DNA from: Ensifer sp. LC163
Lineage (GTDB): Bacteria > Pseudomonadota > Alphaproteobacteria > Rhizobiales > Rhizobiaceae
Direction of reading: 5' to 3'
DNA: 64,000 nt
Assembly (NCBI RefSeq): GCF_001695855.1
Contig: NZ_MBSS01000023.1
Coordinates: 1-64,000 of the forward strand
Part shown: positions 30,276 through 41,610 of the stretch, piece by piece
Layout of the letters: each line of letters begins with the position of its first letter
Numbering within the stretch: position 1 is the first letter of the stretch
Program-made: the position numbers and the translations under genes
The notes under the pieces: model-generated
What the model saw: the letters and a program-made list of their open reading frames with translations, nothing else
Told to the model about the DNA's origin: nothing
Database searches by the model: none

Positions 30276-33200
30276 TCAATTCTTGCCGTAGCCGCCGCCG
30301 GTTGGCGTGACGACCGTAAAGGCCTCGCCGGCTTCCAGAACCGTATGGGCGCAGCCCGACAGCTCTTCGTTTCGGCCGTCGTTGCGCCGGACGATGTTCT
30401 GGCCGAGATTGCCGGGCTCACCGCCCTTGATGCCGAAGGGGGCAACGCGGCGATGACCGGAGAGGATCGCGAAGTCGAGCTTCTCCCGGGCGCGAATGGT
30501 GCGCTTCGTGCCGTCGCCGGCCGACCACTTGCCCTTGCCGCCGGAGCCGCGGCGGATGTGGAAGTCCTCCAGCACCACCGGGAAACGGGTCTCGAGGATC
30601 TCAGGATCGGTCAGACGCGAATTGGTCATATGCGTGTGGACCGCATCGGCGCCATTATAGCCGGGCCCCGCCGGCGCACCCGAGCAGATCGTCTCGTAAT
30701 ACTGGTAATGCGCGTTGCCGAAGGTCAGATTGTTCATCGTCCCTTGAGCGCCGGCCTGGCTTTGGACCGCACCGAAGAGGCAGTTGGTAACGGCCTGGCT
30801 GACCTCGACATTGCCGGCGACGACCGCCGCCGGATAGCGCGGGGTGAGCATCGTGCCTTCCGGGATGACGATGCGGATCGGCCTCAGGCAGCCGGCGTTC
30901 ATCGGGATGTCGGCTTCGACGAGCACGCGGAAGACATAGAGGACCGCCGCCCGGGTGACCGGCGCCGGCGCGTTGAAGTTGTCCGAACGCTGCACCGACG
31001 TACCGGTGAAATCGACAGTAGCTTCGCGCTTGTCGCGATCGACGGTGATCTTCACCACGATCTTGCAGCCCTGGTCCATCTCGTAGGAAAACTCGCCGTT
31101 GGGCAGTTGGTCGAGCACCCGTCGCACGCTTTCGGCGGCATTGTCCTGGACGTGGCCCATATAGGCCTCGACGACATCCTCGCCGAACTGCGCGATCATC
31201 TTCTTGAGTTCGGCCACACCCTTCTCGTTGGCGGCAACCTGCGCCTTCAGATCGTTGACGTTCTGGACGATGTTGCGCACGGGATAACGTGCACCGTTCA
31301 GCAGCGCCTCAAGCTCGGCCTCGCAGAACCGGCCGGCATCGATGAGCTTGAAGTTGTCGATATAGACGCCTTCTTCCTCGATGTTGGTCGCCAGCGGCGA
31401 CATCGAGCCGGGCGAAATTCCACCGATATCGGCATGATGGCCGCGGCTTGCGACCCAGAAGCGGATCTCCCTGCCCCGGTCGTCGAACACCGGCGTGCAG
31501 ACCGTCAGGTCGGGCAGATGCGTGCCGCCATTGTAAGGCGCATTGATGAGGAAGACGTCGCCGGGATGAATGACCGGGTTCTCGCGGATCGCGGTCGCGA
31601 CCGAGGCATCCATGGAGCCGAGATGCACCGGCATGTGCGGCGCGTTGGCGACGAGATTGCCCCTGTTGTCGAACACCGCACAGGAGAAGTCGAGACGCTC
31701 CTTGATATTCACGGAATAGGCAGTGTTCTGCAGCGTCACGCCCATCTGCTCGGCGATCGACATGAAGAGGTTGTTGAAGATCTCGAGCATGACCGGATCG
31801 GCCTTGGTGCCGATCGCGCTGCGCGCCGGCAGCGCCTTGACGCGGCGAAGCACGATATGGTCCTTGGCCGTCAGTTCCGCCTGCCAGCCGTCCTCGACGA
31901 TAACAGTCTGGTTCGGCTCGATGATGATCGCCGGACCATCGAGGCGCTGGCCGGGCTTGATCTCGGAGCGAAGCGCCACTGGCGCATCATGAACCTGGCC
32001 CTGCGAGTAGAAGCGGGTGCTGCGGCTGAGCGCGGGCGCGCCTTCGGTCGTGGCCTGGCCTTCGCCTTCCATCTGGGCAGCGCCGCCGCCGACGGTTTCG
32101 ACTTCGACCGCGTCGATGACCAGTGCCTTGTTCTCGGCAACAAAGCCGAAGCGGCGCTTGTGCAACGTCTCGAACTCGGCGCGCAGGCGCGCGATATCGT
32201 CATGCTCGGGGAAGGTCGCATCAACCGCCAGAACCGTATCGGTGCCGGCATAGCGGATATGGGCGCGCAGATGCGTGCGGATCTCGTCGCGAGCAATGCC
32301 TTGCGCCTCGAGTTCGCCGAGGCATTCGACCTGCAGGTCGGACCCAAGCTCAGCGAGGGCCGCCGGCGCCTTGTCGTCGAGCGCAACGCCGAGCGCCTTC
32401 TGGCGCGTCGCGCGAATATCGGCAAGGCCCATGCCATAGGCCGACAGCAGGCCCGACATCGGGTGAACCAGAATGCTCTTCATGCCCAGCTGATCGGCGA
32501 CAAGGCAGGCGTGCTGGCCGCCGGCACCGCCGAAACAGCTGAGCGCATAGCGCGTCACGTCGTAGCCGCGCTGGACCGAGATCTTCTTGATCGCCTCGAC
32601 CATGTTGGCCACGGCAATGCGGATGAAGCCGTCAGCAACGTCCTCGGGGCTGCGGCCATCGCCGATTTCCGCGGCCATCGCCGCGAACCGCTCACGCACC
32701 GTCTCGACGTCGAGCCGCTCGTTCTGCTCCGGCCCGAACAGCGCCGGGAAAAACTCGGGCATCAGCTTGCCGAGCATCACATTGGCATCGGTGACAGCCA
32801 GCGGGCCGCCGTTTCGATAGCAGGCGGGACCGGGATTGGCGCCGGCGGAATCCGGTCCGACGCGGAAGCGCTCGCCGTCAAAATGCAGGATCGAGCCGCC
32901 GCCGGCGGCAACCGTGTGGATCAGCATCATCGGCGCGCGCACGCGCACGCCGGCGACTTCGGTTTCGAAGGCACGCTCGTACTCACCGTCGAAATGGGCA
33001 ACGTCGGTCGACGTGCCCCCCATGTCGAAGCCGATGACGCGGTCGAAGCCGGCTGCTTCACCGGTTTTGGCGAGGCCGACGACACCGCCGGCCGGGCCGG
33101 AGAGGATCGCATCCTTGCCCTGGAACATGTCGGCAGCCGTCAGACCGCCCGATGACATCATGAACATAACGCGGGCGCCCGAGCGCTCGATATCGAGCTC

Positions 33201-39874: not shown

Positions 39875-41610
39875 CCACGATTTTCGAAGGGACGTTCGAG
39901 CGCTCGCTCGACACCATGCTCGCAACCTATGGCAAGGAGGCTGCACGCGGCACCCGGCTGGAGGCATGGCTCTTCGATGATCGCGAAAGCCGCGAGGCGG
40001 CCGAGGAGAAGCTCGCGGGTTTCGGCGTCGAGGCAAGGCTCAGAAGCGCCTACAAGCCGCTGTTGCACTTCTTCCTCGAGGAGATCGACCTCAAGGCGCT
40101 GAAGCGCGTCGACATCCGCTATCCGCAGCCCGAAAACTGCCTGGCAAACCGCTTCCTGCTCGAGGCTTATCCGCTGGCAGCGCTCGTCGGCGATGCCGAG
40201 ATCGCCTTTGTCGGCGGCAGCGATGCGGCACTGACCTACGACGTCGCGCTGACCTTTGCCGACGGACGCACGGAAAGCCACTCGGTGTTTGCGCCCAACC
40301 GCCAGCACACCGACTTCATCGGCGAAACACTTCTGTCTCCGACCGGCTGGGTCCGTCTCGACGACAACAGCGGCAACCGGCGCGAATGCCATCTCGAAAC
40401 CGACTATGAGCGGCTGTTCACCGGGGCCATGCGTGCGATCGCCGAGCACGGCTGGGGCGACAGCGAACCCTATTTCGACGAACTCAACATCCGCGCGACA
40501 TTGCCGATCAACGATCTTCGGCTGCCGGTCGGCGAAGAGGTCGTCAGCCTCCGCGAGGCGCTGCACGAAGATTTCTACTTCTCGCTGCTCGAAGTTTTTC
40601 AGAAGAAGTCGGGCCGCCCGCTTGGCGACCGCGGCCTGAAACCCGGCCAGATCGTGCCCGAGATCGTCTTTGCCGATGGCAAACCCACGGTCCGGGTCGA
40701 AACGCGACCGCTGGCGACAGCAGATGCCGACGGCGAGGTCCAGCCGCTCGATACGGCGCAGGCACCTCTCGCAGTTGCGCAGATCCATGCCGAACTGGAG
40801 AAGATCGATGGCCAGCCCTTTGAGGCGCATTCGCGCGCCAGCCGCCCCGTCAAGGCGCGCTACCACAAGGGCACCGACGCGGCGGTGATGATCAGCGGCG
40901 GCCAGCACCCCAACGAGACCACCGGCATCGTCGGCGCATTGCGCGCGGCCCGGACGCTAGCCGCTCGTCCCGGCGCCCACTTCACGGTATCGCCGCTCGA
41001 AAACCCTGATGGTTATGCCGTTCACCAGCGGCTGCGCGCCGACAACCCGCTGCACATGCATCACGCCGCCCGCTACACCGCACTCGGCGACGATCTCGAA
41101 TACCGCGCCGGCGCCGCGCTCAACGAGCGGGCAATCCGCAACGAAGCCGAAGCGCTCTCGGGCGCCGAGCTTCATGTCAACCTGCACGGCTACCCCTCGC
41201 ACGAGTGGACACGGCCGCTGTCCGGTTATGTGCCGCGCGGCTTTGCCATGTGGACCCTGCCGAAGGGTTTCTTCCTGATCATGCGCCACCACGCCGATTG
41301 GGAGGTGCGGGCCGAGCAACTGATCGAAGCGGTGACGGCCCGCTTGGCCGCGGTCCCCGGCCTGCTCGCCTACAACGACCAGCAGATCGCGCTTTACGAA
41401 ACCCATGCCGGCGAAACCGGCTTCCGCATCATCAACGGTTTCCCCTGCATGATCTCCGTCGACGATCGCCACAAGGCGCCGCTGACCCTGATCACGGAAT
41501 ATCCCGACGAAACCATCTATGGCGACGCCTTCGTTGCAGGGCACGAGGCGCAACGCGAGACGGTCCTTGCCGCCTACGAGGCGTTCCAGTCGATGATGGC
41601 GATCGCCTAG
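39871..41610 (+). CDS. M14-type zinc carboxypeptidase-like protein
   Basis: The 579-residue protein has an unassigned N-terminal part (1 to about 330) and a C-terminal M14-like domain. Zinc ligands are suggested by SGGQHPNETTG (His/Glu, near residue 345) and LHVNLHGYPSHEW (His near 438); LITEYPDETIY near residue 547 could supply the catalytic glutamate. No signal peptide is present, so it acts inside the cell, after import. It overlaps the permease stop by four bases, so it belongs to the importer operon. I infer that it trims imported peptides; an amide-hydrolysing deacylase of the AstE type is the main alternative. Confidence 0.78.
   Translation: MTTIFEGTFERSLDTMLATYGKEAARGTRLEAWLFDDRESREAAEEKLAGFGVEARLRSAYKPLLHFFLEEIDLKALKRVDIRYPQPENCLANRFLLEAYPLAALVGDAEIAFVGGSDAALTYDVALTFADGRTESHSVFAPNRQHTDFIGETLLSPTGWVRLDDNSGNRRECHLETDYERLFTGAMRAIAEHGWGDSEPYFDELNIRATLPINDLRLPVGEEVVSLREALHEDFYFSLLEVFQKKSGRPLGDRGLKPGQIVPEIVFADGKPTVRVETRPLATADADGEVQPLDTAQAPLAVAQIHAELEKIDGQPFEAHSRASRPVKARYHKGTDAAVMISGGQHPNETTGIVGALRAARTLAARPGAHFTVSPLENPDGYAVHQRLRADNPLHMHHAARYTALGDDLEYRAGAALNERAIRNEAEALSGAELHVNLHGYPSHEWTRPLSGYVPRGFAMWTLPKGFFLIMRHHADWEVRAEQLIEAVTARLAAVPGLLAYNDQQIALYETHAGETGFRIINGFPCMISVDDRHKAPLTLITEYPDETIYGDAFVAGHEAQRETVLAAYEAFQSMMAIA

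Follow-up and report, generated by a model that had tools for sequence, protein, structure and literature searches.

Dedicated use of 5-oxoproline, a cyclic form of glutamate, has been described in Corynebacterium glutamicum, where PxpTABC-PxpR serves free 5-oxoproline with the help of a secondary carrier and a GntR regulator (accessible part of PMC13274462), and in Bordetella pertussis, where the tripartite ATP-independent periplasmic (TRAP) systems of DctP6 and DctP7 for pyroglutamate are found near a eukaryotic-type oxoprolinase (accessible parts of PMC13274462 and PMC3454389). We have analysed a seven-gene locus of Ensifer sp. LC163, situated at positions 30276–41610 of a stretch of 64,000 nucleotides (positions 1 to 64,000 of contig NZ_MBSS01000023.1, C23, of a 6.5-Mb genome), which we call the window. 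Like PxpTABC-PxpR, this locus appears to be dedicated to 5-oxoproline, with uptake, a predicted ATP-dependent 5-oxoprolinase and a divergent regulator, but it has a peptide-type ATP-binding cassette (ABC) importer, a peptidase, an unrelated type of enzyme and a MarR-like regulator. It shares with the DctP6/DctP7 systems an enzyme family adjoining 5-oxoproline uptake, and close relatives of its enzyme are indeed found in such loci, whereas those systems deal with free 5-oxoproline and have no peptidase. It resembles E. coli GsiABCD, which adjoins iaaA, by the gene order, the protein lengths and the fused double ATPase, but its binding protein is distant from GsiB and an oxoprolinase and an M14-like peptidase stand in place of IaaA. 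As shown below, two unrelated oxoprolinases have more than once become neighbours of this peptidase, in most cases along with the same importer, and on balance we favour the view that the locus scavenges compounds yielding 5-oxoproline, chiefly short pyroglutamyl (pGlu) peptides. A literature search found no account of this gene set in the titles and starts of abstracts of the best-ranked 4 to 20 of up to 2,342 papers, which does not prove that the set is unpublished. The AbcEDCBA system of B. ovis (accessible part of PMC4256435) was considered and found to be unrelated to this locus.

The features of the locus are the following:

30276–33908, minus strand: predicted fused ATP-dependent 5-oxoprolinase of the OPLAH type (OPL), 1210 residues (Pfam domains, ATP motifs)
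33971–33987, strand not assigned: operator-like site of 17 bp, GTCGATAAAATGATGAC, with the conserved block TTGACAAAATGTCGATAAAATGATGACAT around it
34017–34601, plus strand: winged-helix regulator, HTH_27, MarR-like (WHTH), 194 residues (PF13463, E 1.6e-21)
34615–36447, plus strand: fused double ATPase of a peptide-type ABC importer, 610 residues (Pfam ABC_tran twice and oligo_HPY)
36499–38031, plus strand: family-5 solute-binding protein, 510 residues, signal peptide recognised by eye (SBP_bac_5, E 3e-92)
38092–39015, plus strand: permease 1, 307 residues, TTG start (BPD_transp_1 and BPD_transp_1_N)
39020–39874, plus strand: permease 2, 284 residues (BPD_transp_1)
39871–41610, plus strand: M14-like predicted zinc carboxypeptidase, 579 residues, no signal peptide seen by eye (fold and invariant residues)

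All seven genes are intact and open. Their coordinates and lengths are as in a preliminary description made from the sequence of the window; the open reading frames agree, six of the products are recognised by Pfam and the M14-like protein by its fold and catalytic residues. The lengths of the Gsi proteins given in that description (623, 512, 306 and 303 residues) were also correct. OPL is divergent from the other genes over 108 bp, and the six plus-strand genes are closely packed, with successive gaps of 13, 51, 60, 4 and −4 bp. Neither 33850–34120 nor 41550–42250 showed the pattern of a sigma-70 promoter or of a terminator.

To define the distribution of the M14-like protein, whose nearest named relatives belong to Ensifer, we searched three sets of genomes; its family was present in 66 of the 394 Rhizobiaceae genomes, in 7 of the 385 from the class and in 9 of the 398 from the phylum. 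The window's own genome is in each of these sets and one other genome in two; after removal of G1065, which held a fragment with a stop, 78 genomes were left. The surroundings of the M14 gene were read over up to 20 kb in the 77 genomes besides the window's (loci are designated by L numbers), four stretches being shortened by contig ends. OPL (more than 50% identity) was present within 10 kb in 30 of these 77 loci, PxpA and/or PxpBC in 9, both in none and neither in 38. The window's seven genes stood in the same order in 28 of these 30 loci with OPL and likewise in nine named loci, L006–L013 and L015, some of them possibly from the same genomes. Because the same genes keep the same order, the set is not a chance assembly. 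The preliminary description had made its proposal of a single system depend on such conservation in other Rhizobiaceae, and the seven genes do co-occur in many of them.

The loci with Pxp genes formed the counterpart of the OPL-bearing ones. Nine of the 67 copies of PxpA that we found were within 12 kb of M14, compared to about 0.3 expected in 5-Mb genomes. The four importer genes (ABCD) were present in 8 of the 9 Pxp-type loci, and in 6 of these 8 the pxp genes, a biotin-carboxylase-like gene, ABCD and M14 followed one another in this order on one strand. In L131, the order was importer-M14-PxpA-PxpB-PxpC on one strand, each Pxp protein passing one NCBIfam cut-off, with bit scores above those for PxpA (371 versus 213), PxpB (147.9 versus 145.55) and TIGR00724 (248 versus 230) and below that of the PxpC equivalog NF045499 (204 versus 500). 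The PxpBC proteins of L114 and L026 scored 124 and 143 for PxpB, under 145.55; L114 has kept the regulator and has Pxp instead of OPL. A plasmid of Ketogulonicigenium robustum carries ABCD-M14-GntR-PxpA-PxpBC-biotin carboxylase, while plasmids of Sinorhizobium meliloti AK83 (L029) and Rhizobium etli NXC12 (L032) carry M14 and Pxp genes without ABCD, some of the Pxp genes of the latter matching in broken pieces. In these two plasmids, a biotin-carboxylase-like protein and a DUF1989 protein accompany PxpA/PxpBC near M14.

In a tree of 88 M14 sequences, made by a quick method and with long-branch warnings, the OPL and Pxp labels each required at least nine gains or losses; four of those for OPL and six of those for Pxp are imposed by well-supported branches. 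The survey of the loci and these label changes together indicate that two unrelated enzymes arrived repeatedly beside the same peptidase. One could nevertheless suppose that the locus encodes a general peptide importer and a general carboxypeptidase, the oxoprolinase being a neighbour that only disposes of 5-oxoproline arising fortuitously from peptides rich in glutamine. Two unrelated oxoprolinases, which exclude each other, are repeatedly associated with the locus; this speaks against such an explanation, which we consider improbable, though an oxoprolinase is missing from the 10 kb around M14 in half of the loci and an M20 peptidase family, of which Pfam was used to check one member, is found close to M14 in five.

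Pfam recognised in OPL the complete HyuA and HyuB set of domains (Hydant_A_N, Hydantoinase_A, Hydant_A_C and Hydantoinase_B), and the motifs DRGGTFTD, DMGGTSTD and GANPGP were found at residues 18, 295 and 356. The protein thus combines fused HyuA and HyuB parts with the two phosphate motifs for ATP and the adenosine motif, as in the eukaryotic (OPLAH) type (for the ATP motifs of the family, see the accessible part of PMC8453981). In the B half, D740, H797, D800 and H824/H825, at nearly the spacing seen in CapB, are candidates for an Asp-His-Asp-His metal site, placed by eye. Yet the best solved relative of OPL, the fused enzyme 7hk5, is deposited as an N-methylhydantoinase, so that a HyuA-HyuB fusion alone is no proof of an oxoprolinase. 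These 'oxoprolinases' might therefore act on another lactam or cyclic imide, such as 2-pyrrolidone, valerolactam, hydantoin or an opine lactam, the family including caprolactamase and hydantoinases and the substrate not being settled by sequence alone (accessible part of PMC8453981); PxpA of the R. etli locus L032 is furthermore found near an aminotransferase, an aldehyde dehydrogenase and a CoA transferase. OPL shares with the CapAB caprolactamase and with N-methylhydantoinase the HyuA/HyuB superfamily and the ATP motifs, but its score against CapA (374 bits) is under the equivalog cut-off of 1000. Lys40 of CapA, which is missing in oxoprolinases according to the accessible part of PMC8453981, could not be located in the OPL sequence and was not used.

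OPL-clade copies (about 58% identity or more) were present in 51 of the 78 M14 genomes, 31 of them at the M14 locus (one broken) and 20 elsewhere. Away from M14, 20 stretches from 19 genomes were read (one genome having two copies, and G033 being left out). A DctP at least 51% identical to that of L158, together with DctQ and DctM, was found in 10 of the 20, including L158 itself, and L162 had in addition a weak DctP match. A Liv-type binding protein with ABC ATPases was found in three, all of one genus, and a WHTH homologue in 16. The DctP of L158 matched 2PFY (E 3e-98), 2PFZ (2e-91) and 6wgm (3e-78), the next chain being at 4e-21; 2PFY and 2PFZ are crystal structures from B. pertussis, of DctP7 and DctP6 respectively, with pyroglutamic acid as ligand (accessible part of PMC3454389). 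L129 (genome G1114) unites in one locus M14, a broken OPL (matched in pieces), a 50% identical DctP with DctQ/DctM and a WHTH homologue, without the ABC importer.

OPL and PxpA also complemented each other across 158 genomes, i.e., the 78 with M14 and 80 random M14-negative control genomes of the family. PxpA was present in 46 of 56 OPL-negative and in 35 of 102 OPL-positive genomes, and in 42 of 43 versus 35 of 98 when both sides were restricted to genomes at least 90% complete and of at least 3.3 Mb. Because of the TRAP neighbours and of this complementarity, OPL is very probably a 5-oxoprolinase, as the preliminary description had proposed; the proposal holds as a prediction from motifs and genomic context. 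Together with the presence of PxpABC in L131, these data make another lactam a quite improbable target, and hydantoin is unlikely to be the sole substrate of OPL.

The gap between OPL and WHTH contained a conserved block in all 29 cases read (the window and 28 loci, 12 distinct sequences). The operator-like site inside it has the form GTC-N11-GAC, with a dyad symmetry confined to the outer bases in the window, where the site occurs once; the sequence GTCAATAAATTATTGAC, found in several OPL-WHTH pairs elsewhere, is palindromic except for the centre base. The 'operator cluster' of the preliminary description thus gives way to one conserved operator-like site. A matrix trained on OPL-associated sites only was run on the 300 bp upstream of the importer operon, leaving out L120, whose upstream stretch had been delimited wrongly (5492 bp), and, by a choice made beforehand, M14 loci without importer and L097, with an ATPase below 60% identity; the threshold of 13 bits was chosen after the scores were seen. 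When OPL was elsewhere in the genome, 9 of 14 importer loci, from four genera, scored at least 13 (shuffle p ≤ 0.02); three of the other five have an adjoining GntR gene and one has Pxp. By comparison, none of 12 Rhizobiaceae loci without WHTH, in genomes without OPL, reached 13, the top score being 7.3 (Fisher p = 0.0007, kinship ignored). The loci with WHTH in the absence of OPL (L081, L114 and L131) scored −2.5, 3.0 and 11.1 upstream of the importer; L081 has a strong site upstream of WHTH instead (46.6 on a longer matrix).

Judged by these sites, the importer and M14 on the one hand and the oxoprolinase on the other appear to form one regulon, also where they are distant from each other, and the shared site in the unlinked cases is a further argument against a general importer with an incidental neighbour. 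WHTH would be the protein that binds the operator-like site, and by analogy with PxpR (accessible part of PMC13274462) it may sense 5-oxoproline. We also observed that L087, L089, L090, L093 and L116 have a GntR regulator 53–56% identical to the one adjoining PxpA in Ketogulonicigenium; it adjoins ABCD-M14, or in L116 just M14, at loci in which no WHTH was detected, and is possibly a second 5-oxoproline sensor.

The M14-like protein had only sub-threshold matches in Pfam (15.7 bits with PF00246, compared to a gathering score of 21.6). Its AlphaFold model, obtained from a 19-row alignment, had a mean pLDDT of 87 and gave 92 Foldseek matches with E ≤ 0.001, the best among the top 50 that were read being 4oko (E 8e-9). 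H346, E349 and H439 (zinc) and E543 (catalytic) were invariant in 20 of 20 rows; the first three align with those of 4oko, and the role of E543 was assigned by eye. The protein thus has the M14 carboxypeptidase fold according to the model, and the zinc ligands and catalytic glutamate according to the alignment; carboxypeptidase activity is predicted. With Rep34 (4oko), 4b6z, CPA4 and CCP5 it shares the fold and the HxxE...H zinc motif, but the match is partial (TM about 0.3 by the length of the window's protein), about 300 N-terminal residues are extra and the score is under the Pfam M14 cut-off. Weaker relatives (34–37%) are found on Deinococcus plasmids, and six Enterococcus records matched too.

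In importers of this kind, the binding protein decides the specificity. The ATPase is 58.5% identical to GsiA and the permeases 40% to GsiC and 47% to GsiD (over 219 residues), while the binding protein is about equally distant from GsiB (26.6%) and DppA (26.2%). None of the NCBIfam equivalog cut-offs was reached (GsiA 861 versus 1077 bits, GsiB 176 versus 594, GsiC 265 versus 463 and GsiD 235 versus 484), and GsiB lacks an aspartate, D418, kept in the window's protein. The likeness to GsiABCD noted in the preliminary description is therefore real for the gene order and the nearly equal lengths, but is not upheld as evidence for glutathione. Glutathione or other gamma-glutamyl peptides could still be the imported compounds, as the Gsi-like order and lengths would suit, ChaC converting glutathione to 5-oxoproline and Cys-Gly, M14 aiding with the remainder and the oxoprolinase forming glutamate. 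ChaC is known to produce 5-oxoproline from glutathione, and its presence in 78 of 78 M14 genomes (no control set was run) means that this route is open; it also counts against a specific role for pGlu peptides. In L097 (genome G401), a gamma-glutamyltranspeptidase gene (5356–7140) is flanked by a dissimilar peptide transporter on one side and by the ATPase-M14 pair on the other. However, the window's genome has both of its ChaC copies on other contigs (C5 and C68), and gamma-glutamyltranspeptidase appeared once among 30 neighbour proteins picked for Pfam. We thus regard the glutathione route as unlikely. The earlier proposal of an import of glutathione or pyroglutamyl peptides is in this way retained for its link to 5-oxoproline, which is most naturally read as a route for pyroglutamyl or gamma-glutamyl peptides, and not supported for glutathione.

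The scavenging of pGlu peptides would proceed as follows. A pGlu peptide would be captured by the family-5 binding protein and brought in by the ABC importer, and the cytosolic M14-like carboxypeptidase would trim its C-terminal residues until 5-oxoproline is free; among the smallest substrates that carboxypeptidases normally accept are dipeptides with a blocked amino end, such as pGlu-X. The fused oxoprolinase would then open the ring at the expense of ATP, yielding glutamate to be used as food. WHTH would sit on the operator-like site between the divergent transcripts, controlling both sides, and would be released as 5-oxoproline accumulates. This model is suggested by the exchange of oxoprolinases and the recurrence of the site in trans (both computed directly, as are the gene set and the conserved site), by L131 and L114, by the TRAP neighbours, by the OPL/PxpA complementarity, by the M14 fold and by the distribution of pyroglutamyl peptidase I. 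This enzyme was found in 4 of the 78 M14 genomes, compared to 26 of the 80 controls, and was not detected in the window's genome, which is 97% complete. The three genomes of the family with both pyroglutamyl peptidase I and M14 hold its most divergent M14 proteins (41–48%); a 'core' test that omits them post hoc gives 0 of 63. That some source of 5-oxoproline is the target appears to us rather probable; for pGlu peptides as the chief source, we see a somewhat better than even chance.

Beside the ubiquity of ChaC, several observations weigh against pGlu peptides as the substrate. The contrast for pyroglutamyl peptidase I has p = 0.09 when counted by genus, and the value of 0.002 obtained without the three most divergent M14 genomes depends on an exclusion chosen after the data were seen. 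The presence of OPL or PxpA in 78 of 78 M14 genomes is unspecific, since 70 of 80 controls have one as well (9 of the 10 lacking both being small or incomplete), and was dropped as evidence for a link with M14. Among the 38 M14 loci with neither enzyme within 10 kb, four are shortened by contig ends and L096 has an unfused HyuA/HyuB pair, but some of the loci without oxoprolinase hold genes for the M20 peptidase or for gamma-glutamyltranspeptidase, or unrelated ones. The gene for the binding protein appears split in L131. The M14-like protein has Ala400 at the position of the asparagine of what is presumably the usual M14 Asn-Arg carboxylate clamp, Arg401 alone being kept. D418 of the binding protein aligns with an aspartate of DppA/OppA that we take to be their alpha-amino site, which would suit a peptide with a free amino end; this point is weak because the aspartate aligns in 5u4o and agrocinopine-type proteins too, and we judged it uninformative as a clue to the substrate. 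Finally, two AT-rich gammaproteobacterial loci without OPL score 12.3 and 13.0 for the site, and their inclusion changes the Fisher p to 0.02 (9 of 14 versus 2 of 14 at 12 bits, kinship again ignored); the half-site TGTCAA is also the complement of the −35 box TTGACA, so that some of the matches in trans could be promoters.

Around the locus, the window holds a shortened response regulator next to a histidine kinase (42234–42608, 86% identical to residues 1–111 of a homologue of about 224 residues in L134), of which the DNA-binding half was not found. Two minus-strand open reading frames at 26881–27674 resemble a split IS5-type transposase, and a minus-strand carbohydrate set at 44211–54053 (FGGY-type kinase, aldolase-like protein and ABC genes) is apparently unrelated to the seven genes, both as judged by eye.

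Pyroglutamyl peptides are expected remains of the breakdown of plant and microbial proteins and resist ordinary aminopeptidases. If our proposal is true, it would account for the use of such peptides by soil and root bacteria that lack pyroglutamyl peptidase I, and it would provide a function for a peptidase family whose member in the window is reached by no Pfam model. A substrate would also be assigned to an ABC importer from the large group of orphan 'dipeptide' systems. The replacement of one oxoprolinase by another, unrelated one offers a natural control, which makes the assignment directly testable. More speculatively, the M14-like protein may found an unrecognised and widespread family of pGlu-peptide peptidases that replaces pyroglutamyl peptidase I and joins, with its importer, one or the other of the two unrelated 5-oxoprolinases, according to which of them is present in the cell. 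The result would be a modular pathway for N-blocked peptides, controlled by a regulator that senses 5-oxoproline.

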